A DNA stretch of 64,000 bases from Nereocystis luetkeana. Taxonomy: Eukaryota; Sar; Phaeophyceae; Laminariales; Laminariaceae. Position numbers and translations under genes: made by a program. The stretch lies in contig JARUPZ010000019.1 in assembly GCA_031213475.1 (NCBI GenBank), positions 310,001-374,000 of the forward strand, written 5' to 3'. The notes under the pieces are model-generated. The model was not told the DNA's origin and ran no database searches. It saw only the letters and a list, made by a program, of their open reading frames with translations. This document shows, piece after piece, positions 4,961-25,713 of this stretch (its first letter is position 1; every line of letters starts with the position of its first letter).

Positions 4961-5238
4961 TGTTATGATACTGCTTTGTATGAGGTTGAAAGCCCGGTAA
5001 TTACCTGGGTTCTGGCACTGGGATCGTATTTGTTGTGCTTGGAAGGCGTATCTTAGGTGGAAAACCAGGGGTTTTCCAAGAGAGGCGCGAGCGTGGTCTC
5101 AGTCTCCGTCGTGCACGGAAGGAATAAAGCTGCTCTTCTATCTCTAAGCAAGCAACACACGTGAGTACCAATTAGTACCGGCTTAATAGGCAGACCTGCC
5201 CAGGGATACAAAGTGTCCCGCTGTCCGTGATCGTAACA
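4961..5238 (+). repeat. solo LTR of the gypsy-type family
   Basis: A 278-bp sequence beginning TGTTATGATACTGC and ending GATCGTAACA, closely similar to the LTRs at 5255-5531 and 15987-16263. No internal region is attached; 16 bases separate it from the next LTR. The flanking four bases (GCTG and GTTG) are a plausible eroded target duplication. It is a fossil left by LTR-LTR recombination, or an older insertion beside the full element. Confidence 0.8.
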
Positions 5239-5254: not shown

Positions 5255-5531
5255 TGTTATGATGCTGCTTTGTATGAGGTTGAAAGCCCGGTAATTACCT
5301 GGGTTCTGGCATTGGGATCGTATTTGTAGTACTTGGAAGGCGTATCTTAGGTGGAAAACCAGGGGTTTTCCAGAGAGGCACAAGCGTGGTCTCAGTCTCC
5401 GTCGTGCACGAAAGGAATAAAGTTGCTCTTCTATCTCTAAGCAAGCAACACACGTGAGCACCAATGAGTACCGGCTTAATAGGCAGGCCTGCCAAGGGAT
5501 ACAAAGTGTCCCGCTGTCCGTGATCTCAAGA
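5255..5531 (+). repeat. 5' LTR of the gypsy-type element
   Basis: 277 bp, beginning TGTTATGATGCTGC and matching the 3' LTR at 15987-16263. An AATAAA signal sits near 5418. The last part of the LTR is open in the gag-like frame, with a start codon at 5454, so translation may begin inside the LTR. The same start context occurs in the minus-strand relative at 25528. Confidence 0.85.
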
Positions 5532-8220
5532 AGTGGCGTCGCCGCTCGAGAGCTCCGACTGGACATGCCCGCGGACGACCTCTCCGTACACGACGCTTGG
5601 CTCGACATGGCGGGTGACAGTTGGACGGCCCAGCAACGCCGGGAGCACACCATGGCTCTCGTGATAAGCCTGCGGCAGGCGCACGATTTGTGCTCCGCCA
5701 CCGTTTTTTGGCCGACCCCGACGGAGTATGGGCGACACTGCAAGCGCCTGGCCGACCTCGGCGCCCAGGGACAACGTCTCCCGGACGCCGGACACGACTC
5801 GGGTCAGGCCCACGCCCCCTCCAACCCCCTCTCGGACGACCGGGCTCACCGACCCCCGGGGCACCAACACCCGGGAGTCCCCGACGGTTCTGGGGTCCGC
5901 GACCACCCCTACTGCCGCGATGACGACCGGGACCGCCGGCGCCCAAGCATGGGGGGAGCCTCGGCAGGCCATGACGGCAAGGCCCGCCGCGGACAGGGTT
6001 CAGATCACGGCAGGAGCATCTTTCGGCGAAACGGGGCTGGACGGCGCCGAAGCCGGGGCCAGGGTAAGGACAGCTCGAGCGACGGGCGAAACTGGAGCTA
6101 CCGCACGCGGGGAGACGCGTCGCAGGCTAACCTTGCCCAAGTTCGCACGACGGCGATCGACTCTGCCGCCGCCGCCGCGAAAAAGCACACCGCAGACGTC
6201 CGACGGGTGTACAAACACCTGGGACTGAAGGATATTTCACGCGTTTCTGTTCTACCTTTTCCCTCCTCGATCAACCCTTCTGATGCCGCGCAGCAACTCA
6301 CCCTTTCGGTTAAGGCCTCCACGTCTGATATTCTCATGATGTGCAACGATGGCAGCCACGAAGGCCTTTATTCTACCCATTGGATCCCCGGTTGGGAGTA
6401 CCCCCTCAAGAAATCCTTCACGCGCACCATCGCACCTGACAAGCCCACGACCGCCCCCCTCACTACCTTGATGGATGATGTTTTTGGGCAGGTGTCGCGC
6501 GCCCTCGCAGCCGGATCGACGGGACCGGGAGCGTTCACACTCCTCCTGAGGTTGTTGAGCAACCGCTTCGACCGCACCGACACGGGGGCCAGCTACACCA
6601 AGTTGCATCATTTCGGCGTATCTAACGGGACCCCCTTTTGCGATTTTAACGGTGCTTTTCGAGGGGTGGTGTCGGCAGCGACGGGGACTGAGCGTGTTTT
6701 GGCACCGGGGGTGGAGGTCGTTTTGGAGGTTGTTCGGATGGCAATGAACGAGCAGTTCCCCAGCTTGATGCCCACGCTGTACCCGGGAGTAGTAGCTACG
6801 GTGTCGAGGCCGTTTGGTACTTTGGACGCCATGTGGTTGGCTTTTGAGACTCTCGCGAAGAATAAGAGACCTGCCATCAACGGCGAAAAATATTGTTATT
6901 TGCCTGCTTCTTCGACGGGTGTGCGGTCATCCGCGCCGTCGGGGCCCCTGCCCGCCAGTAATGGCCGCGGCCAGGGCCGGACGCTTCCCCAGTCACCTGT
7001 TTGACAGACGGGGTCGCGCAATAATCCGCTTGTGATGAACGTCTCCACAAATCCATCCCTGACTGCCTCGACCCGTGGCTTGACACCGCTTCCAACTGCT
7101 GGCCCCTAGAAGAACACCACTATGCTGAAGTTCACGCCGTTTGCATGTCGATCCAGACCGAGGACCCTCCCCTCTGGAGCGGTCTACTTTCATCGTTCGT
7201 TCGCGCGGCCGCCCTCAGCGAAAACAGAGGCCGCTATTTGAAGTGCCACGAAGACTCACACTCCCTCAGACAGCGTAGGCACCCCTTTAAAAACCTCAGC
7301 GGCATTCTAAACCCCGACCTCGGAAAGCTCGGCGGCGACGGCGCGGCGTTCCGTCGTTGTCAAAAACGCATGACCCGACACCGCCGCGAAAATAACTCAC
7401 GGCTGAACAAGCACAACCACAAGAAAAACAGGCGTCGTTCCGGTCATTCGCGTGGGCAGCATCACGGCCAGGGCCACAGACAAGGTGACGGCTACAACTC
7501 ACACGAGGAACGAGGGCACCAAGAGTCTAGTTCCGGCTACCACCGTGGTGGTTCGACCACCTCTGCCTCTTCCACCCCGGCTCCCGCGTCGGGGGTTCGC
7601 TACGATGCCTCGTATAATTCGGACGGTAACCCCAACGGACGCCAGCCAGGCACCTTCCGCGCCGGTAACTGACAGGTCGACGGCGGTTCGGCTCCTCCTG
7701 CCCGCCCGCCGCCAGCATTGCCGGGAGAAAATACTTTGATTTCACAAGATGCACGCGTCCCAGGCTTGCTCAGCACTCGGCGCCGCCCCGCACCGCTCCC
7801 TCCCCGCGCGTTGCTCCGTACTTCGGACCGACGCAGAGACTCCGCTCCACCGGGTTTACCGGGGAGCCTACGGGCGTCTTCGCCAACGACGGGAGCCCGC
7901 GCCTCGAACGCCGCTCCCCCCACCCTGGGCACGAGAGCAGGCGCGATAAACGCCGCTCTTCCGAACCACGCACCGCGCGGCACCACGCGTGTCGCGCCGT
8001 CGCATCGTTCTTTTCAGCGAGGGTGTCCCCCTCTTTCACCTCCCGGCCATGCGGTGGCGGTCGGTTTGAGGTGCGGGAAGGCAAACACCGAAGCCCCAAG
8101 ACCTCGGTTGAAACTCGACTCGGCGTTTCCTCGCAATAACGGTGGCCGCTCCACCCTTTTTTCTATCAAGGAAGAGTCGACAAGAGTAGCTACCTCGTCC
8201 CTCTTCCCCACCAGGTCTAC
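5532..8220 (+). pseudogene. gag-like region of the gypsy-type element (fossil)
   Basis: The first open stretch (from the LTR to 7004) is the expected place for gag. It begins with a helical block (DMPADDLSVHDAWLDMAG), passes through a basic Arg/Gly/Pro-rich region and continues into a globular-looking part around 6230-6960 (DISRVSVLPFPSSIN; DGSHEGLYSTHWIPGWEYP). A second open stretch, 7145-7672, is rich in His, Arg, Gly and Ser. I do not see a classical CCHC zinc knuckle, so the gag assignment rests mainly on position. Part of the first block recurs inside the rearranged relative near 23.5 kb. Confidence 0.6.
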
Positions 8221-8239
8221 ATGACCGAAGCCCTCTCCG

Positions 8240-9200
8240 GTGGACCCTTTGTTGCCCCCCACCGGAGCACGGTTTTCGAAGTCGTCCATAGGGTCTGCAG
8301 GCCCTCTTTCATCTTCGCGCACGCCACTCCACGTGCGCCGCGCTCCTTCGGCCACAGTGGAACAGGAAAAACCTGGTACTGCCCGTCGAGCCAGTGGTGA
8401 CTCCACAGCCTCCGGTCAGATCAACCGGGCAGCATACCCGTTAAATTCGGAAGAGTCGCAGCTCTCTTCAAGCAGAACGGGCTCGGAACCCCCTGCTCCC
8501 TTTGGTCCAGGACAGAGATCACCGGGCGCAGTAAGAGAACCTTCTGGCGATTTTTTGCCTACGGGCAATGGAGACACCGAGCCAGTATACGTGGAACCGG
8601 ACTCGCCTCTTGCACCAGGGGCTCAGTGTTCTCAGAGAAGCACACCCCCCTACACACACACCGCAACGGCGGCCACCGACGACTCGACATCTTCGGTCTT
8701 CGACACTAATCTCGAGTATGCAACGGAGCGGGTGGTACTTTTATGGCAGCCCCCCTCCTACTTTTCGCAGTGGTCCCCCTCGGTTTTTGTCATTGACGGT
8801 GTGCCATATTCCTGCGCGGAGCAGTATATGGTGGCTGAAAAGGCTCGCCTTTTTCTGGACCACGACACAGCGGAGCGGATTATGGCCTCCCCAGACCCTC
8901 GCGAGCACAAATGCCTCGGTCGAGGCGTGCATAACTTCGACTGCGCTACCTGGGACCGCGTTCGGGAAGACGCCGTCCTTGCTGGTTCTTTTGCCAAATT
9001 CACGCAGAGCCCGGTCATGAAGCAGCACCTATTGAGCACTGGCAACAATTTTTTGGCTAAAGCCAGCCCTTTCGACCCTGTGTGGGGCATCGGTCTCCGG
9101 GCAGACGACCCCGAGGCTCAAGACCCCTCTCGGTGGAGTGGGAAAAATTTGCTCGGGAAAGCTCCGCCGTTCGCGACACCCTCCGCTCAAGTGAGGCCGG
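8240..9200 (+). pseudogene. NADAR (YbiA-like) domain inside the gypsy-type element
   Basis: The open stretch 8240-10201 first encodes about 155 low-complexity residues, then from about 8715 to 9165 a complete-looking NADAR domain. Hallmarks in order are FSQWSPSVFVIDGVPYSCAE, QYMVAEKARLF, DPREHKCLGRGVHNF, a TWDRVREDAVL helix, SFAKFTQSPVMKQHLLSTG, ASPFDPVWGIGL and NLLGKA. The Glu in AEQYM, the Trp in WGIGL and the KFTQ motif are family-defining positions. Known NADAR proteins cleave N-glycosidic bonds, for example in riboflavin-pathway intermediates (YbiA), and some remove ADP-ribose from guanosine. The domain sits between gag and protease, where these elements normally have nothing enzymatic. 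The domain looks intact, but the element around it is a broken fossil. The role in the element's life cycle is unknown. Confidence 0.9.
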
Positions 9201-10201
9201 GTTGGCACCCCCCACCTCCTCTCATCAATTTTGCACTCCGATCACGACCGACAGAATTCATGAGATTCCACCAGCGCCGCCCCGCCCTTTGGCCGTGGGC
9301 CGCGCTTGCCCAGGTCCTCCCTTGGAGTTTTCGATCTATTTTTCTGACGTGCCGGCTGATCACAGCCCCGGGGTTTGGGCTGTCGCATCTAGTGTCGACC
9401 CCTCCCTCGCGCTGCCAGAACACGGCCCCTGCCTCGTCGAGGGCACCATTACCCTCGATGACGCCTCTTTTGCAACCAAAATCGCGATTCACAGCGGAGC
9501 TGGCGTTCTTGCACCTTTTGGCTGCGTGGCGCTTCTTGACACTGGCTCCCCACAGACCTTCATTCGGCGAGATGTTTTGGATCGCATGCTCGCGGTTGGT
9601 GCGGCATCCATCGCGTGCGAGCAAAAATGCACTCCTCGTTCCTGGGGGGGGGTTCGGCGAATCAACCCCTCTGAAAACATCGACGAGTGTGCGCCTGAGC
9701 GTCCAATTTTTTTGGGAAAATGGGCCTACATGCTCCCTCACTGTTTGGGCCTGCGTGCCCCCCCCCTCAGTGATGCAGCGTGCAGTACTGCTGGGACGTG
9801 ACAGCTGGATGCGTTCTAATAGCCGCTCCTACCGCCCTATGCCACCTCGCTCGTCAGACCAACGAGATTTTGGCGAACTGGAGTTACTTCACCACGCCCC
9901 GACAAGCATGTCCGTATACGCCATCAACCCCGCCGCTTCGGGTGGAGGCTTCCATCTCCGCTACGAGGGCGCGGCAGGCGTCACCCTGTCCGACGGTCCT
10001 CAACTCCTTGCGGTTAATTCGGTTCGAAGCGATGGCTCCCCGGCACTCAATGGACACTACTTGGTCGACATGATGCCCCAGTCCGACCTGCCCTCGGTTG
10101 AGGAGCACTTCGTCGCCTCCGGGCGACAGGTTCCTCTCCTCGTTGGAGTGGCGGCCCTCGAGCCAGGAGATATCCTCGGCGTCGCCCACGCCCACTGCTG
10201 A
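9200..10201 (+). pseudogene. aspartic protease and PR-RT linker of the gypsy-type element (fossil)
   Basis: A retropepsin-like block with ALLDTGSPQTFIRRDVL lies near 9525-9580; the LDTGS triad is the catalytic signature. It is followed by a beta-rich linker typical of gypsy-type pol (GHYLVDMMPQS, PLLVGVAALEPGDILGVAH near 10040-10190). The latter segment is conserved in the minus-strand relative, directly upstream of its RT. The region is part of the broken element. Confidence 0.75.
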
Positions 10202-10218: not shown

Positions 10219-11469
10219 TTGCATCAGGACAACCGAGCCCCCAGCCCTCCCTCAGGACTATCTGAGGTGTCTCCGATCTCAGCAGTTACAGCTTCCCCCC
10301 TCGCAGCTACAGCCTCGCCCTCGCCTGCACTGCTCGAGCGTTTGAGCCTAGAACAGCGCGTTTCGTCCCTGCGCGTCTGGACACGTTTGCCGCTGCATCT
10401 GCGGGAGGTGGCTTTTGACCTTCACGGCACGGACTGGATCCCTGAGGCCATCGCACAGCTGGGGGATGTTCTCTGCGATTTTCCGGACGTATTCTCGAAG
10501 TCCAAATCTGATTTTGGTTCCTGCTCGTTGATGCCTTTCGTGATTTCGGTCCCGGAAGGAAGCGCTCCTGTCATGTCCAGGCCGCACCGCATCAACCCCA
10601 TACTGGCCAAGGAAGTGGAGGCCCCCTTGGATCAGTATCTAGCGGCGGGTCTGATCCAGCACTTGACCTCTCCGTACTCGAGCCCGCTGGTGGTCATCCC
10701 GAAGAGGTCGGGAGGCGTTCGGATCACCGTGAACTACAAGAAACTCAACCAGATCAGCAACCTCAGCCAGCTGCCTATTCCTCGCGTGGATCAAGTCCTC
10801 GACTCCCTGGGAAAGGGACGGGTGTTTTCTCTCTTCGATTTGGTCTCCTCGTCCCACCAAATTACCGTGCTCAAGGACACCGTCCCTCTCACAGTGTTTT
10901 GCACTCCTACGGGACTCTACGAGTGGCTCGTCATGCCCCAAGGCAGCAGTGCTTCGCCCGGCTGGTTCGTCAAAGTGATTAACGCCATCAAAGGTCTGGC
11001 ACAGGTGGCGGCCTACCTCGATGATGTGATCGTTTTCGACTCTGATCCGACGGCCCACGTCAAGGCGATACGAGCCCTTTTCGAACGCCTGCGCAAACAC
11101 AACCTCAAGCTCTCCTCCTCGAAGGCTCGCCTCGGCGCCATAGACGCTAATTTTGTGGGCCACTCCATTTCGCCCGCGGGTATACGCCCCAATGCGGAAA
11201 AAAAAACGGTTTTGATGAAAATGCCCATGCCCAAGAACCTCAAGCAGGTCCGTGCGTTGATGGGCGGCGTGGGATATTATCGCAAACTCCTGCCCGACCT
11301 GTCTAAAAGGATCCGTCCTCTCACTGCCCTCCTCCGGAAGGGGGTTAAGCACGTCTTTACGCCGGCCATGGAAGCTATCGTTCGCCAGATCCTCGCCGAG
11401 CTCGCTACCCCACCAATTTTGGTCTTCCCGGACTGGGACGCTGTAGCCGACGGCTCCCGTGTACTATGA
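10219..11469 (+). pseudogene. reverse transcriptase of the gypsy-type element (fossil)
   Basis: A 416-codon open stretch covers the Ty3/gypsy RT: RPHRINPILAKEVEAPLDQY, SPLVVIPKRSGGVRITVNYK, VFSLFDLVSS, GLYEWLVMPQGSSASPGWF, then the catalytic YLDD (AAYLDDVIVFDSD near 11011-11043), GHSISPAGIRP and VRALMGGVGYYRKLLPD. Motif order and spacing are those of chromovirus-like gypsy pol. It is part of an element that is broken overall. Confidence 0.92.
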
Positions 11470-11815
11470 CGCCTGCATCGACGGTTTTGGTGCCGCGCTT
11501 GAACAAGAACAACTAGACGGCTCGGTACGGCCCATTGCTTATATCAGCCGCGCTACCCTCGATTCCGAGAGACACTGGACCCCGTTGGACCTGGAAACTG
11601 GCAGCATTGTCTGGGTTATCAAGCGACTCCGAGGCTACCTACGGTGGACAAAGTTTCGCATATTTTTCGGACCACGAAGCACTTGAGAGCATCGGCAAAG
11701 TAGGGGATCACAACGCGCGAGTCCAGCGGTGGCTCGAGTTCCTCACAGCGTTCGACTACACCCTCGAGTACCGCAAGGGCAACGCCAACGGAAATGCGGA
11801 TTTTCTCTCCTGCTT
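11459..11815 (+). pseudogene. RNase H of the gypsy-type element (fossil)
   Basis: RNase H follows RT directly: DACIDGFGAALEQEQ, then AYISRATLDSERHWTPLDLE, then FSDHEALESIG and the closing RKGNANGNADFLS. These are the usual D-E-D-D-type blocks of gypsy RNase H. The region is part of the broken element and is not in a single open stretch. Confidence 0.85.
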
Positions 11816-12197
11816 GCCAGAGCCCGCCACAGAACACGACTGCAGTGGGCCTAGCAGCCTCACACTCGTCGAGGACGGGGGTATCTTCCTCATCCGAGCC
11901 TGCGGGCTTCGCACTCGCTCTTCCCCGACCCCCGGTGTAGGTTTGGGTGGGCTGGTGCCCCGCACCGAAAGTGCCGTCTTGGGTGGGCTGCCTTTCACCT
12001 CTTCGGATTTTTGCGATTTTCGCGCACACGGGCCACGTATGAGGATTGACGGCCTCTCTGCTCCTCTGGGGGGATTCGTCGCTCGTGTATCTGCTTCCGT
12101 CACCACCGTCGAGCGCCGTCCTGATCTGCGGGTTTTTCCACCCGCCGCCGACGCCGTTTTCGCTTCGGTTTTTGTCGTACCCCCCGGGGGCGACCAG

Positions 12198-12790
12198 GGC
12201 TCTGCAGAAGCCCCCGCTGCGGCGACGAATGTCGCCCAGCGCGCTCCTCCCCCGACGAGCACTTTACAAGGAAAAGATCCCGCCGTGAGCACTGCTCCGG
12301 CCGCGTCTGCTCCTTCAGGCCAGGGCTCTGCAAAAGCCCCCGCTGCGGCGACGAATGTCGCCCGGCGCGCTCCTCCCCCGACGAGCACTTTACAGGGAAA
12401 AGATCCCGCCGTGAGCACTGCTCCGGCCGCGTCTGCTCCTTCAGGCCAGGGCTCTGCAGTAGCCCCCGCTGCGGCGACGAATGTCGCCCGTCGCGCTCGT
12501 CCCCCGACAAGCACTTTACAGGGAGAAGATTCCGCCGCGAGCACTGCTCCGGCCGCGTCTGCCCCTTCAGGCCATGGGTCTGCAGCAGCCCCCGCTGCGG
12601 CGACGAATGTCGCCCAGCGCGCTCCTCCCTCGACGAGCACTTTGCAGGGAGAAGATTCCGCCGCGAGCACTGCTCCGGCCGCGTCTGCCCCTTCAGGCCA
12701 GGGCTCTGCAGCAGCCCCCGCTGCAGCGACGAATGTCGCTCAGCGCGAAGATTCCGCCGTGATCACTGATCCGGCCGCGTCTGCCCCATC
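12198..12790 (+). repeat. 126-bp (42-residue) coding tandem repeat within pol
   Basis: Four complete 126-bp units start at 12198, 12324, 12450 and 12576, and a shorter fifth starts at 12702. Each encodes an Ala/Pro/Ser/Thr-rich 42-residue unit containing APAAATNVA, PPTSTLQG and STAPAASAPSG. The unit is a whole number of codons, so copy number can vary without changing frame. It lies between RNase H and integrase and probably acts as a flexible spacer. All three plus frames are nearly stop-free here because of composition. Confidence 0.93.
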
Positions 12791-13019
12791 TCCGCCTTGC
12801 AACCTGGCGCCTCTGAATACTTTGCCGCCTTCGGGCCGCATCTCGACTCGGACACGCCGGCAAAAAGCCGCCGCCGCTGGCTCCGCGCCGCCTGCTGTTG
12901 ATTATGGCTTCGCGCCCAGCGGGGCCCCCAGACCATCAGCCCGGCGTGCTATCACCTCGCCGTGAGCCCCACGGCCGCGACCTCCCGCATCAGTAGTTTT
13001 TGCCCCGGCTCCTGCCGCT

Positions 13020-14340
13020 TCGTTGGTCCCGACGGTACCCATCCCGTCCGAACGCGACCACGCCGAGCCCGTGGGAACCCCTCTTTTACGGCTTCCGCTG
13101 CCAACTGACGCTCCGCCCGTCCCCATGAATGACTCGGACGCCCTCGGCGCAGCTGCCGAATTTCAGTTCGGGGATTCTGCAGCGCGCTATTCGCACACCG
13201 ATTGGGCTCGGGAACAACAGGCCGAGCCCACGTGCAACGCCGCCATGCGCTACATAGCCCTTGGCCGGCCGGAAGTTTGCCAGCCGACTTTTTGTCGTGT
13301 TTCCCTTCCCACCAGCGCCCTCCTTTTTCGGGGGTTCAGGAGCTGGCTACCAAAGGCCGTTTGCACACCACCGACGCGAGCATCGTTCTACTCGTCCGGC
13401 AGCCGTTCCCCCCCCTTGCGTCACGCACGCAACGCCCGGTGGGTCGTACGGCCTGTTTATTGAACAACGAGCCTATTCGCATTTATGTGCCGCTACTCAT
13501 GCGCCCCTGGGTCATGCAGGCTTGTCATTCCACGGTTTCCTGCCACCTAGGCACCGCGCGCACCCTACGTATGCTCGAACGTTTTTCCTGGTGGATCGGT
13601 ATGAGTATTTGCACCCGGTGGTGGTTACGCAACTGCTTGAAGTGCCAAGCATGGAAAACGTCGCGGCAGACGGCCCGGTGGCCCATCATCACGTTGCCCT
13701 TGCCAGAAGGACCCGGTATCGCCGTCAGCATCGACTACTTCGGCCCCCTCCCGATGACGCCTCGAGGAAATACCTACATCTTGCTTTCACTGATCGTTTC
13801 AGCCGCCGAGCCGACATGTACGCCATCACTGCGGCAGAGTTCACCGCTGAGGGCACGGCTACCATTCTCATCAACCGGTGTATCCTCTCTGTGGGTGCCC
13901 GGGCAGCATCCTCTCGGACAACGGCCTCCAGTTCTGCTCCAAGCTTTCGCACACCGTAAATCAGCTTCTCGGGGTTCGAAAAATTGCCCCCAGCTCCTAC
14001 CACCCAAACGGCAACGGTGGGGTGGAAGGTGTAAACCACACGATGGCCCAGATGCTGGCAATGGTCGTCAACGAGCTCCAAAACAAGTGGGATGAACAGC
14101 TCCCTCATGTCGAATTTGCGTACAACAATTCGGTCAGTGCCTCCACGGGCTTGGCTCCCAATGAGGTACATATGGGTCGGCTGCCACGCCTCCCCCTCAC
14201 GATTTTCGAGCGTGCAGGAGTCGCCGGCCACCAAAGCTTGGCCCGCGACCACCTCGCCTATTGCGACGTGGCGATGGACCGCCAGCAGGGCGCGTACGTA
14301 TCGTTCGCGAACACCACGCCCTCACTGTCGCCCGCGTGAA
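13020..14340 (+). pseudogene. integrase of the gypsy-type element (fossil)
   Basis: The zinc-binding N-terminal part is visible as CHSTVSCHLGTARTLRMLER followed by NCLKCQAWK (about 13520-13660). The DDE core has SIDYFGPLPMTPRGNTY (first Asp, about 13720), LSDNGLQFCSKL (second Asp, about 13910) and SYHPNGNGGVEGVNHTM (Glu, about 14000-14050). The order and motifs fit a Ty3/gypsy integrase. The parts are spread over more than one frame; the element is broken. Confidence 0.85.
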
Positions 14341-15379
14341 CCGCCGCAACTCCACCCTCTCCGACGCTCTGCGTCCGGTCCCCAAATTTGACGTTGGCGG
14401 CTGGGCGTGGGTGTACAATACGGCGGCCACCATCCGCCAGGGCGCAAAGCCCGACACGGACGCCAAGGTCCTGAATGCCAAACTCTCACTCAACTGGACA
14501 GGCCCCTACAAAGTTCTCGCAGTTGGCCCCTGCTCCGCAGCGGACACCCCGGACGGGTCTCCTCTTGGGGCAAAGCTCCTGTATTTGGATCTTCCTTCCG
14601 ATATGCCCGGCGCGGATGCTCGTCGGCGCGTTTCAGTCCAACACTGCAAGCCCTGTGCCAACCCCCACGACCGTGGCGACATGCCGAAGTATTTTCCAGC
14701 GGGGTTGACGCAGTACGTGCTCAACAACTTCTCCAAGAAATCTCCCCCATACCACGTTACCCAGGACGACGTCTCGACACCTCTTCACCGTCTCGAAGTG
14801 GAAAAGGTTACCGGGCACCAATCGGTTCGAGGTCGAGGTGGCGTCATAGCAGTACGAGACGCACTGGACTGGATTCCCGCGTCCATCCCGGGAACGGGAA
14901 ATGGACCTTCAGCTTTCTCGCCACGCAATTTGCGCTACTGGGCCGGCACCCCAAACCAGCATCGCCAAACCAACCGCCTGTACGGCCGAATGAAAATCGG
15001 CGAGGCACAACGGGAGCTCTCTCGGAATAACGGCGAGCGGTTTCTGGCACCCAGCTATGTCTGCGTCTCGCACGCCAACTGGCTTCGCCGATACTGCAAC
15101 ACCGTGCTTCCCAAGGGGGGCCATTTTTGGTACAAGGGCGACGACTGTCTGTGGTGGCTCGGGAAAATCAGCGCGACTACGCCCACGGCTGGAGTATATT
15201 TGGTTCGATTTTTGGACGACCCGGGACCGATCAAGCTTCCTCTTTCTCCGGCGCGCTACACGACTTCGACGAGAGCTGTACGAGGCTCTAGGTGTCTACA
15301 AATTCACTTGGCTAGCGCATTTGCACGTGGGGTCCAGCGTAACGTGGACGAATCTCGAGGCGCCGCCGTGGATAACTAA
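14340..15379 (+). pseudogene. integrase C-terminal tail with chromo-like and Tudor-like modules (fossil)
   Basis: A 372-codon stretch (14261-15379) continues the integrase into its SH3-like end (LNWTGPYKVLAVGP near 14490), then a chromodomain-like VEKVTGHQSVRGRGGVIAVR (about 14795-14855), then after a linker a short beta-rich module (FWYKGDDCLWWLGKI, VYLVRFLDDPGPIKLPL near 15120-15245) that resembles a Tudor/Agenet fold. In chromoviruses such tails steer integration to modified histones; applying that here is inference. It ends at a stop at 15379. Confidence 0.65.
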
Positions 15380-15986: not shown

Positions 15987-16263
15987 TGTTATGATACTGC
16001 TTTGTATGTGGTTGAAAGCCCGGTAATTGCCTAGGTTCTGGCACTGGGATCGTATTTGTAGTACTTGGAAGGCGTATCTTAGGTGGGAAAACCAGGGTTT
16101 TCCAGAGAGGCACAAGCGTGGTCTCAGTCTCCGTCGTGCACGAAAGGAATAAAGCTGTTCTTCTATCTCTAAGCAAGCAACACATGTGAGCACCAATGAG
16201 TACCGGCTTAATAGGCAGACCTGCCCAGGGATACAAAGTGTCCCGCTGTCCGTGATCTTAACA
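15987..16263 (+). repeat. 3' LTR of the gypsy-type element
   Basis: 277 bp, TGTTATGATACTGC to GATCTTAACA, paired with 5255-5531. About 10-12 differences from the 5' copy are visible by eye. Confidence 0.88.
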
Positions 16264-19129: not shown

Positions 19130-20629
19130 TGGTACCACGAGGACACCCTGCTGACAGCGAATGCTAAGGGGCGAGGCCTGGCAAGCGGATAAGATGGACG
19201 GCGGATACTCACCGACGCACAGCGTGTCAAGCTTTCGGCGTTCATCTTCGGCAAGCACGAGGAGGGGGATTTGCGACAGACGGTGGCTGAGTGGATCGAC
19301 AAGGAGTGTGGCCGTAAGATGTCGAACCTGGCGGTAGGACGAATGCAGTTTAGGCTTGGGTATAAGCGCCGTCGCGGTAGGATCAAATTCCCCCCTCTTA
19401 CCGAGACCAGGTTAGATCGCATCCGGCGTTTTCTTGTCGAGTTTGCGGATGCCCTCCGTCAGGAGGATGCGGGCACTGCAAGTCATCGTGTACATGGATG
19501 AGAGTTTTTGCCATCAGCTCCACGGTTCGGCTTACTCGTACTTTCCCACAAACGGAGATGGTGTCGTGGAAGATGGGATGGGTCGCACGTCTGGGAAGGG
19601 ACAGAGGATGATCATGGTGCATGCGATTACGAAGCACGGGCCGGTGGTAACCGAGGGTACCGATGGGTTCCCTGTTCCCGAGGGTTTCTTTTGTGTGAGT
19701 GGTAAGGGTAAGGAGGCCAAGCGGCAGGCTGGGGAGTTGGGTAGTCTGCCAACAGCAGAGTTTCTCCGGCAAGCGAAACACGCAACGGGTGATTATCACG
19801 ACGCGATGACCGATGGAATGTTTCAGAGATCGTGCACAGAGCGCCTTACGCCAGCGTTTGAGGCGCGGTTCGGAACAGACATGAAAATGATTCTTGTTCT
19901 TGACAATGCCTCGTACCACCACGGGTACGGCGAGGATTAAGGTGCCTGAAACTAACACGAAGGCTGTAAACACCGCACTTTTGCAGAAGTACGGGGTCAG
20001 ATCGATCAAGGTCACCCGCAAGGGAACGACTCGTAACATCGAGGTACCAGACCCTGGCTCTAAGTTTCCCCAAGCGAACTCGAGGTGTGGCAATGGTGTA
20101 AGCAGGGAGGAGATAGCGTTGGCCACACGGACGTACTTTCAGACTTACCATCCCGACAAGCTACTTGAGAAGGTGGAGAGGTACGTACACGCAGGGGAAG
20201 GGGTGGGAGTTGATCTGGACCCCCCCGTACATGCCCAGTTTTCAGCCGATCGAGCTGTTCTGGCAGCACGGTAAGCAGTACGTTAGCTTCAAGTTCGCGA
20301 CGGGTCGCAAGATCAAACAGGTGTGGGAGCAGATTCGGTTGGGTTGGTACGGCGATCCCAATTGGGAGGGACAACCGGGTGGTTGGCGGGCGGCCAACTG
20401 CGGCAACTTGGTCAGGCATTCGATTGGGGAGATGGGCAAGTGGATAGCCAACAATGCTGTTCTCAAAGGTAGCATCCGCAATCGTAAGACGCCTGAAGGG
20501 TACGACATAGACGATGTACCCGACAAGACGATTCTTGAGGACGACGGGGTAGAGGCCCAGATGGAGCTTGAGTTGGCTGACGAGCTCGCCGACCTCATTG
20601 ATGAAAGTCAAGAAAATCGTGAGGTTTAG
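19130..20629 (+). pseudogene. IS630/Tc1-mariner-like DDE transposase, degraded
   Basis: Successive frames encode a transposase: an N-terminal helix-turn-helix-like part (TDAQRVKLSAFIFGKHEEGD; KMSNLAVGRMQFRLGYKRRR), then the DDE core with YMDESFCHQLHG (first Asp, about 19490), MILVLDNASYHHG (second Asp, about 19890) and WTPPYMPSFQPIELFWQHGK (Glu, about 20235). An acidic C-terminus follows and ends at 20629. One in-frame stop (19188) and frame changes near 19480, 19930 and 20200 disrupt it, so it is non-functional unless spliced in an unusual way. The core order and the PxxxPIE motif identify the IS630/Tc1 superfamily. Clear terminal inverted repeats were not found. Confidence 0.85.
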
Positions 20630-22599: not shown

Positions 22600-22875
22600 T
22601 GTTAAGATCACGGAGAGCGGGACACTTTGTATCCCTCGACAGGTCTGCCTATTAAGCCGGCACTCGTTGGTACTCACGTTGATGTTCGCTTAGAGATAGA
22701 AGAACAGCTTTATTCCTTTCGTGCACGACGGAGACTGAGACCACGCTCGTGCCTCTCTGGAAAACCCCTGGTTTTCCACCTAAGATACGCCTTCCAAGTA
22801 CTACAAATACGATCCCAGTGCCAGAACCCAGGTAATTACCGGGCTTTCAACCTCATACAAAGCAGTATCATAACA
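22600..22875 (-). repeat. 3' LTR of the minus-strand element
   Basis: On the plus strand it reads TGTTAAGATCACGG to CAGTATCATAACA. It is continuous with the element's 3' non-coding sequence at 22876. Confidence 0.88.
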
Positions 22876-23788
22876 CAAGCCCACTCTGATGAGCCGTATA
22901 TGCAGAATTATGGGAAATTCATGGAAACCCCGATTCCACAACTAGAACATGAGTCGAAGATGCGGCTCCTCAAAACCCACTCCCACACCTCTGAACGGCA
23001 AGGCTACGAAGCCGGCAAAGTACGTAAAAAAGAATGAAAGGGACGTAGCCTCAAGGGGCAGGAAGAAATCGTCAACGAGCTCCAGAACAACTGGGATGAA
23101 CAGCTCCCTCCTGTCGAATTTGCGTACAACAATTCGGTCAGTGCCACCACGGGCTTGGCTCCCAACGAGGTACATACAGGTCGGCTGCCACGCCTCCCCC
23201 TCACGATTTTCGAGCGTGCTGGAGTCGCCGGCCACCAAAGCTTGGCCCGCGACCACCTCGCCTATTGCGACTTGGCGATGGACCGCCAGCAGCGCGCGTA
23301 TGATATCGTTCGCGAACACCACGCCCTCACTGTTGCCCGTGTGAACCGCCGCAACTCCGCCCTAAGCTTGGAGCAGAATTGGAGGCCGTTGTCCGAGAGG
23401 ATGCTGCGCGGGCACCCCCACAGAGGAATATACCGGTTGATGAGAACGTTAGCCGTGCCCTCAGCGGTGACCTCTGCCGCTCGCGAGCTCCGACCGGACA
23501 TCCCCGAGGACGACCTCTCCGTTCACGACGCTTGGCTTGTCATGGCGGCTGACAGCTGGAAGGCCCAGCAATGCCGGGAGCACACCATGGCCCCAGGAGC
23601 AGAGAGGTCGTCAATCCTCATACGTGGCCCGTGTGTGCGAAAATCGCAAAAATCCGAAGAGGTGAAAGGCAGCCCACCAGAGACGGCACGTTCGATGCGA
23701 GGCACCAGCCCACCCAAACCGACACCGGGGGTCGGGGAAGAGCGAGTGCGAAGCCCGCAGCCCTGGATGAGGAAGATACCCCCGTCCT
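22876..23788. pseudogene. mosaic of gypsy-type pieces in both orientations (fossil)
   Basis: Blocks similar to the 11-kb element follow one another in mixed order: 3' non-coding (minus, to about 23030), an integrase piece (plus, about 23060-23365), another integrase piece (minus, about 23370-23480), a gag piece (plus, about 23480-23592), then the post-RNase H region (minus, about 23598 onward). This is not simple deletion; template switching during reverse transcription or nested insertion with inversion would explain it. Confidence 0.7.
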
Positions 23789-25528
23789 CTACGGGTGTGA
23801 GGCTGCTAGACCCACTGCGGTCGTGTTCCGTGGCCGGCTCTGGCGAGCGAGAGAGAAAATCAGCATTGCCGTTGGCGCACCCTCTTTGCCGATGCTTTCA
23901 AGTGCCTTGTGGTCCGAAAAGATGCGAAACTTTGTCCCCCATAGGTAGCCGCGGAGTCGCTTGATAGCCCAGACAATGCTGCCCACTTCGAGGTCCAACG
24001 GGGTCCAGTGTCTCTCGGAATCGAGAGTAGCGCGGCTGATATAAGCAATGGGCCGTACCGAGCCGTCCAGTTGTTCTTGTTCAAGCGCGGCACCAAAACC
24101 GTCGATGCAGGCGTCACAGTACACGCGAAAGGGGCGAGAGCCGTCGGCTACAGCGTCCCAGTCCGGGAAGACCAAAATTGGTGGGGCAGTGAGCTCGGCG
24201 AGGATCTGGCGAACGATAACTTCCATGGCCGGCGCAAAGACGTACTTAACCCCCTTCCGGAGGAGGGCAGTGAGAGGACGGATCCTTTTAGACAGGTCGG
24301 GCAGGAGTTTGCGATAATATCCCACGCCGCCCATCAATGCTCGGACCTGCTTGAGGTTCTTGGGCATGGGCATTTTCAACAAAGCCGAATTTTTTTCCGC
24401 ATTGGGGCGTATACCCGCGGGCGAAATGGAGTGGCCCACAAAATTAGCGTCCGTGGCGCCGAGGCGAGCCTTCGAGGAGGAGAGCTTGAGGTTGTGTTTG
24501 CGCAGGCGTTCGAAAAGGGCTCGTATCGCCTTGACGTGGGCCGTCGGATCAGAGTCGAAAACGATCACATCATCGAGGTAGGCCGCCACCTGTGGCAGGC
24601 CTTTGATGACTTCGTTAATCACTTTGACGAACCAGCCGGGCGAAGCACTGCTGCCTTGGGGCATGACGAGCCACTCGTAGAGTCCCGTAGGAGTGCAAAA
24701 CGCTGTGAGAGGGACGGTGTCCTTGAGCACGGTAATTTGGTGTAACGAGGACACCAAATCGAAGAGAGAAAACACCCGTCCCTTCCCCAGGGAGTCGAGG
24801 ACTTGATCCACCCGAGGAATAGGCAGCTGGCTGAGGTTGCTGATCTGGTTGAGTTTCTTGTAGTTCACGGTGATCCGAACCCCTCCCGACTTCTTTGGGA
24901 TGACCACCAGCGGGCTCGAGTACGGAGAGGACGAGTGCTGGATCAGACCCGCCGCTAGATACTGATCCAAGGTGGCCTCCACTTCCTTGGCCAGTATGGG
25001 GTTGATGCGGTGCGGCCTGGACGTGACTGGAGGGCTTCCTTCCGGGACCGAAATCACGAAAGGCATCAACGAGCAGGAACCAAAATTAGATTTGGACTTC
25101 GAGAATACGTCCGGAAAATCGCAGAGAACATCTCCCAGTTGTTCGATGGCCTCAGGGGTCCAGTCCGTGCCGTGAAGGTCAAAAGCTACCTCCCGCAGAT
25201 GCAGCGGCAAACGTGCCCAGACGCCCAGGAACGAAACGCGCTGTTCTAGGCTCAAACGCTCAAGCAGTGCAGGCGAAGGCGAGCTCGGAGCTGCGAGGGG
25301 GGAAGTTGAAACTGGCGAGACCGGAGCCACCTCAGATAGTCCTGACGGAGGGCTGGGGGCTCGGTTGTCCTGATGCAAAACGTCCAGTGGAACGCTCAGC
25401 AGTGGGGCGTGGGCGACGCCGAGGATATCTCCAGGCTCGACGACGCCACTTGTTAAGATCACGGAGAGCGGGGCACTTTGTATCCCTCGACAGGTCTGCC
25501 TATTAAGCCGGCACTCGTTGGTACTCAC
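23789..25528 (-). pseudogene. RT-RNase H open frame starting inside the LTR (fossil)
   Basis: A 579-codon open stretch begins in the LTR (MSTNECRLNRQ), passes straight into the PR-RT linker (EPGDILGVAHAP), RT with AAYLDDVIVFDSD, and RNase H (DACIDGFGAALEQEQ, GSIVWAIKRLRGY, FSDHKALES). Gag and protease are missing from this copy. The protein is close to that of the 11-kb element. The element as a whole is defective. Confidence 0.88.
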
Positions 25529-25713
25529 GTTGATGTTCGTTTAGAGATAGAAGAGCCACTTTATTCCTTTCGTGCACGACGGAGACTGAGACCACGCTCG
25601 TGCCTCTCTGGGAAACCCTAAGATACGCCTTCCAAGTACTACAAATACGATCCCAGTGCCAAAACCCAGGTAATTACCGGGCTTTCAACCTCATACAAAG
25701 CAGTATCATAACA
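25451..25713 (-). repeat. 5' LTR of the minus-strand element
   Basis: 263 bp, similar to 22600-22875. The sequence after it in the minus sense begins AGTGGCGTCG, the same candidate primer site as in the 11-kb element. Confidence 0.87.

Follow-up and report, generated by a model that had tools for sequence, protein, structure and literature searches.

The Ty3/gypsy element described here carries a NADAR domain between gag and protease; in other organisms, such enzyme domains take ADP-ribose off DNA. It lies in a 64,000-nucleotide stretch of Nereocystis luetkeana DNA, referred to below as the window. The element is a decayed copy, belonging to a family that we call B, of a Ty3/gypsy lineage in which Pol begins with a YbiA-type NADAR of likely bacterial origin. 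NADAR-bearing Gypsy elements are an already published kind, and the window element is another member of it. The function that we consider slightly better than an even bet is that of a Gag-Pol-borne ADP-ribosyl hydrolase, which would be made by readthrough, packaged, and act on guanines of the element's nucleic acid or on other conjugates. The domain, its place, its recurrence, the selection on it, its conserved residues and the matching trees are observed, whereas we infer readthrough, packaging, enzyme activity and substrate.

The domain was identified with the Pfam NADAR profile PF08719.17. The translation of positions 8240-10201 matches this profile with an E-value of 9.7e-43 and 146.7 bits (cut-off 35.1). 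The match covers residues 170-308, which are window positions 8747-9163 on the plus strand, and profile positions 8-154 of 163. A preliminary description of the window had placed a NADAR domain here, between gag and protease of a Ty3/gypsy element, and the profile search that it proposed bears this out. Together, the profile match and the fold, the latter modeled only for the domain of an open copy at another locus (L009), place the domain in the YbiA subfamily of the NADAR superfamily. The L009 model, built from a 27-row alignment including bacterial and viral relatives, has a mean pLDDT of 96.3. Its sole PDB matches at E ≤0.001 are the Phytophthora nicotianae NADAR in complex with ADP-ribose (8bau; E 4.7e-11, TM 0.87 by query, 30% identity) and Escherichia coli YbiA (2b3w; E 1.6e-8, 26% identity). 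Both proteins share the fold, and that of P. nicotianae also shares most of the ADP-ribose-contacting residues. Unlike the element NADAR, neither is part of a retroelement polyprotein.

The features of the window element are all on the plus strand. The 5' LTR (5255-5531) starts with TGTTATG, and its terminal CA is decayed, while the 3' LTR (15987-16263) reads TGTTATG...TTAACA. AAAT is found just before the former and just after the latter, forming a target-site duplication. The two LTRs are identical at 264/276 aligned bases, their alignment having 12 mismatches and 2 gap columns. Gag was recognized by eye from related copies. Its first part, in frame 3, occupies a stop-to-stop open stretch (5421-7004) that starts within the LTR and resembles, by eye, the gag of a related copy (L019). 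Its C-terminal part (7025-7669) is in frame 2 and contains a zinc-knuckle remnant, LKCHEDSHSL (7238-7267). The knuckle, also recognized by eye, is of the CCHC form in L019 and L024, and cysteines are missing from it in the window. A Laterosporulin match in a gag piece, which at E 0.0028 falls short of the curated cut-off, was taken as chance.

Gag ends at a TGA (7670-7672). The pol-start linker (7673-8737) lacks an in-frame ATG and has an additional in-frame TGA (8222-8224). The NADAR domain (8738-9163) lies 1068 nt downstream of the gag-end TGA in the same frame. It contains the equivalents of the P. nicotianae residues E43 and K50 in AEQYMVAEKA (8816-8845), and in FLAKASP (9050-9070) a Lys takes the place of the catalytic E125. 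The domain is interrupted by a frameshift, and its end, SAVRDTL (9163-9183, frame 1), was identified from related copies and is out of frame with the remainder. The aspartic protease region (9412-9919) is spread over two frames, with LLDTGS at 9532-9549. The reverse transcriptase (RT) domain (10537-11316) and the integrase, in pieces (13289-14180), were each found by Pfam and by a query with the corresponding L009 domain. RNase H, also in pieces (11356-11771), was found by the L009 query and in part by Pfam, below the curated cut-off. The RNase H-integrase linker holds about six tandem repeats of 126 nt (42 codons; 12068-12823). The C-terminal region (14178-15364) is conserved in families A, B and C and is chromodomain-like by eye only; it has no Pfam match and no PDB sequence match, and its six-row model (pLDDT 31.7) was unusable. 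With the L009 domains as queries, the order in the window is NADAR, protease, RT, RNase H, integrase and C-terminal region, in several frames. The LTRs, their TG...CA ends (decayed at the end of the 5' LTR), the target-site duplication and the order of protease, RT, RNase H and integrase are those of a Ty3/gypsy element. The copy is a fossil, as had been recognized earlier: it has frameshifts, the additional TGA, a split protease, RNase H and integrase, and the change of the catalytic Glu to Lys.

Other repeats are present in the window. A further LTR copy (4961-5238), 94% identical to the 3' LTR, lies just upstream of the 5' LTR, and no target-site duplication matching it was seen by eye. The window also holds, at 22600-25713 and mostly on the minus strand, another member of this family. 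It comprises LTR copies (22600-22875 and 25451-25713), an RT (24278-25060) that is 94% identical to that of the first copy, RNase H (23867-24244) and, spread over the two strands, pieces of integrase and of the C-terminal region. Because the NADAR and protease queries gave no match in it, the second element looks like a deleted, rearranged derivative. Open stretches at 19193-20274 are DDE transposase-like by eye.

NADAR-bearing elements are numerous in this genome. A NADAR search of the whole assembly (465 Mb, 1987 contigs) gave 778 candidates at first look, of which 150 were scored, and all 150 exceed the cut-off. A count over the table of scored candidates puts 47 of the 150 in uninterrupted open frames no shorter than 2,000 codons. 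When the window NADAR was used as a DNA query, 305 candidates came up, and 40 of them were scored: the window copy and another 39, which are 93-95% identical to it. The window copy therefore belongs to a large family. Twenty stretches of 10 kb, chosen for long frames and score spread and not randomly, were fetched, and in every one NADAR is followed by protease and RT matches. Matches to RNase H and integrase are both missing from one stretch (L018), and another (L021) lacks one to integrase. No terminal repeats were found in any of the 20, which probably do not span the elements. In L009 and L025, Pfam recognizes all four of NADAR, RT, RNase H and integrase within a single frame, which is 2,428 and 2,273 codons long, respectively.

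Five families were grouped by alignment: A (L009 and others), B (that of the window), C (L025, L027, L040 and L041), D (L039/L143) and E (L042/L144 and L045). Families D and E are known from 3.8-kb stretches covering NADAR, protease, RT and RNase H, and the order of these four domains is common to all five families. NADAR rows of families B to E are 46-56% identical to L009. The preliminary description had asked whether NADAR might be a one-off capture. A single copy that took up a NADAR gene without any function is a reading to which we give practically no credence, and the recurrence rules it out: 150/150 scored candidates in this genome are NADAR, and the domain stands before protease and RT in five families and is also present in a Gypsy lineage of Ectocarpus.

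How NADAR comes to be translated can be approached from the end of gag. The pattern AAC-TGA-CA[AG] closes gag in the window, in 12/12 family-A loci and in 5/6 of the 10-kb family-B loci. It is missing in the remaining B locus (L021) and in both C loci. In L027, one of these two, CCG comes directly after an in-frame TGA, and additional stops lie farther on. NADAR is in frame with the gag TGA in the window, in 5/5 B loci with the pattern and in 4/12 A loci; gag-pol frameshifting was considered, and in these copies NADAR is in the gag frame. A regular Gag extension is disfavored by the stop at the gag end. The option of a structural gag extension, which had been raised before, is weakened because NADAR follows the TGA that closes gag. 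Since it follows this TGA in frame in the window's family, we infer that NADAR is made as Gag-Pol via TGA readthrough. Besides the loci that lack the pattern, three observations count against readthrough. In the other 8/12 A loci, small indels put NADAR out of frame with the gag stop (several are in homopolymer runs and two are beside a 171-base deletion); in family A (L009), an ATG is found about 240 nt after the gag stop; and no stable RNA structure was found after the stop in 8/8 single 90-nt folds (z -1.2 to 0.6, mononucleotide shuffles). Family A is the youngest family. No ATG precedes NADAR in its open stretch in 5/6 B loci and 2/2 C loci, and this ATG-less stretch reaches back to about the gag stop in only L017, L019 and L021. 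In family A, L011 and L014 have a frame-breaking indel of the gag-NADAR spacer in common, and so do L012 and L016. Such sharing points to segmental duplication, to spread in trans or to homopolymer errors that arose repeatedly.

The domain is probably older than the five families. NADAR and RT trees both separate families A, D and E from B and C, with support of 97/98 for NADAR (13 rows) and 100/98 for RT (15 rows), and both group A with D (86/91 and 90/86, respectively). For five families this shape is one of 15 unrooted shapes, and chance agreement is unlikely. Because the two trees agree, NADAR was probably present before the families split.

A scan of prokaryote genomes gave 134 NADAR relatives. 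The 80 kept of these 134 are all bacterial by title and are up to 55% identical to the first query; identity to a B-family NADAR reaches 60% among the matches listed. In addition, 14 viral contigs encode NADAR relatives. A retroelement in the viral or bacterial contigs was considered and rejected: 94 loci were fetched, and these yielded 94 matches to NADAR but no match to the protease, RT, RNase H, integrase or C-terminal queries. An origin tree was built from 13 element, 80 bacterial and 9 viral sequences (102 rows). In it, families B and C adjoin myxobacterial proteins with support that is not strong (83/86), and A, D and E are placed elsewhere, joined by a long-branched Roseobacter protein. 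The best tree, with its split of (B,C) from (A,D,E), would imply two separate gains, but a tree that keeps the 13 element rows in one group is not rejected (p-AU 0.32; 0.42 including the Roseobacter row), and either one gain or two may have taken place. The NADAR of Roseobacter sp. SK209-2-6 (L071:2501-2956) forms its long branch inside the A-D-E element group, and no element domains were found beside it. A bacterial source of the element NADAR is likely, and has also been suggested by Dinatale et al. (2025; PMC12477816).

Conservation of the ligand-binding residues bears on whether the domain works as an enzyme. Schuller et al. (2023; PMC11543638) list ADP-ribose contacts of the P. nicotianae protein, and these were mapped via alignment onto 49 rows, which represent 43 distinct places, six having been fetched twice. 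Equivalents of E43, K50, W89 and D130 are present in 49/49 rows, and those of R79, R93 and W133 in 48/49 each. The equivalent of Y84 is Phe in 47/49, G78 is kept in 47/49 and V81 in 46/49. The catalytic Glu, defined as the equivalent of P. nicotianae E125 (Asp in BC4488 and His in phage forms), is found in 45/49 rows and 40/43 distinct places. The equivalent of K75 is not fully kept (44/49) and that of D86 is not kept (1/49). With one row per family and Y84 counted as Phe, 8/11 side-chain contact positions are invariant vs. 43/144 columns (p 0.003).

At least four copies altogether have Lys at the catalytic Glu, including the window, L022 and L048. Because of this Lys, the NADAR of the window copy is probably inactive. 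Such copies would agree with a binding or structural module, for ADP-ribose or nucleic-acid binding or for Gag-Pol spacing, in which catalysis is dispensable, and so would the faster evolution of NADAR relative to RT and integrase. We regard such a module as quite improbable. An exact 20-base pattern around the site occurs genome-wide with a Glu codon at 68 sites and with a Lys codon at 3 (window and L022 included; L048 lies outside the exact pattern), the ADP-ribose contacts are enriched among the invariant positions, and NADAR comes after the gag stop, which means that Gag does not regularly include it.

The preliminary description had proposed that dN/dS of NADAR be compared with that of RT, and the comparison speaks for purifying selection on both. 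Under a codon model with 6-7 loci, omega is 0.17 for NADAR, 0.13 for protease, 0.053 for RT, 0.067 for RNase H and 0.056 for integrase; these values are rough because between-family synonymous sites are saturated in most NADAR comparisons. For NADAR, omega is roughly threefold that for RT. Within families, NADAR pN/pS is 0.46 in A and 0.57 in B (18 copies each) and that of the other domains 0.31-0.66 (4-12 copies), ratios that mix selection before insertion with decay after it. As estimated from these sequences, NADAR is under purifying selection that is weaker than on RT and about like that on protease.

Among the enzymatic options put forward in the preliminary description, de-ADP-ribosylation fits the conserved residues. 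NADARs, including an oomycete one, are described as removing ADP-ribose from guanine (PMC11543638; PMC11125620), and for NADARs in RNA-virus polyproteins the proposed targets are host-made macromolecular ADP-ribosylations (PMC9503650). A Gag-Pol-borne hydrolase is therefore the role that we favor. In working elements, readthrough of the TGA at the gag end would most likely place NADAR within a Gag-Pol fusion, and this fusion would bring the domain into the particle in enzyme-level amounts. There, NADAR would most likely strip ADP-ribose off guanines of the element's RNA or cDNA, and other host-made ADP-ribose conjugates may be alternative targets. It would serve as a housekeeping or counter-defense enzyme, in a position that resembles that of the dUTPase in some retroviruses. 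Such dUTPases sit between gag and protease or within pol; each is likewise a small captured nucleotide enzyme in a similar Gag-Pol place, although its fold and reaction are unrelated to those of NADAR.

Several results count against the hydrolase. Six-frame searches of the genome, in which intron-split genes can go unnoticed, gave no DarT, one stretch above the PARP cut-off and two above that for Macro; the missing DarT and the single PARP stretch weigh against it. So do the threefold higher omega relative to RT, the incomplete retention of the K75 and D86 equivalents, and the copies with Lys. NADAR may instead target small molecules such as flavin intermediates, free ADP-ribose, NAD derivatives or signaling molecules, not nucleic acid, and so shift a pool, or a host alarm signal, in the particle's vicinity. 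This is a possible reading that we hold to be rather doubtful. The nearest relatives found are bacterial YbiA-type proteins, E. coli YbiA belongs to the riboflavin pathway, and NADARs not associated with DarT may have other targets, as stated in PMC11543638. Phage NADARs have been proposed to use small ADP-ribose derivatives (PMC9503650). The same source argues that the NADARs of RNA-virus polyproteins are mainly macromolecular in their targets, however, and a domain embedded in Pol is nearer to that case. For the favored hydrolase, we advance only tentatively, and as unlikely, the more specific suggestion that an active, packaged de-ADP-ribosylase counters a host defense that ADP-ribosylates retroelement RNA or cDNA, which would be an unknown barrier to retrotransposition in stramenopiles.

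The genome of the brown alga Ectocarpus is smaller than the 465-Mb genome studied here. A NADAR-bearing Gypsy lineage, e.g., Gypsy-12_Ec32, was reported from it in September 2025 (Dinatale et al., 2025; PMC12477816), and the idea that NADAR in LTR elements might be unestablished is thereby overtaken. It is likened to the present elements by its published description. As described, the Ectocarpus families have a C-terminal chromodomain fused to integrase, to be compared with a C-terminal region that is chromodomain-like by eye. The main text of that paper uses neither "stop codon" nor "readthrough". Further reports of NADAR in LTR elements were not among the matches listed in our literature search. 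The same paper describes Tx1 LINEs of the Pacific oyster with a NADAR-like ORF1, which is also a retrotransposon NADAR but in a non-LTR element and another ORF. The NADAR and Macro domains of positive-strand RNA viruses are also ADP-ribose-processing domains in a replication polyprotein, but these viruses are not LTR elements (PMC9503650).

The NADAR-Gypsy kind is now seen in large numbers in a second genome, larger than that of Ectocarpus. Beyond what we found in PMC12477816, the present analysis adds selection and residue conservation that point to a working enzyme, shows that the trees of NADAR and RT agree, and suggests that NADAR may enter Gag-Pol through stop readthrough. Whether retroelements must be protected from nucleic-acid ADP-ribosylation thereby becomes a testable question.
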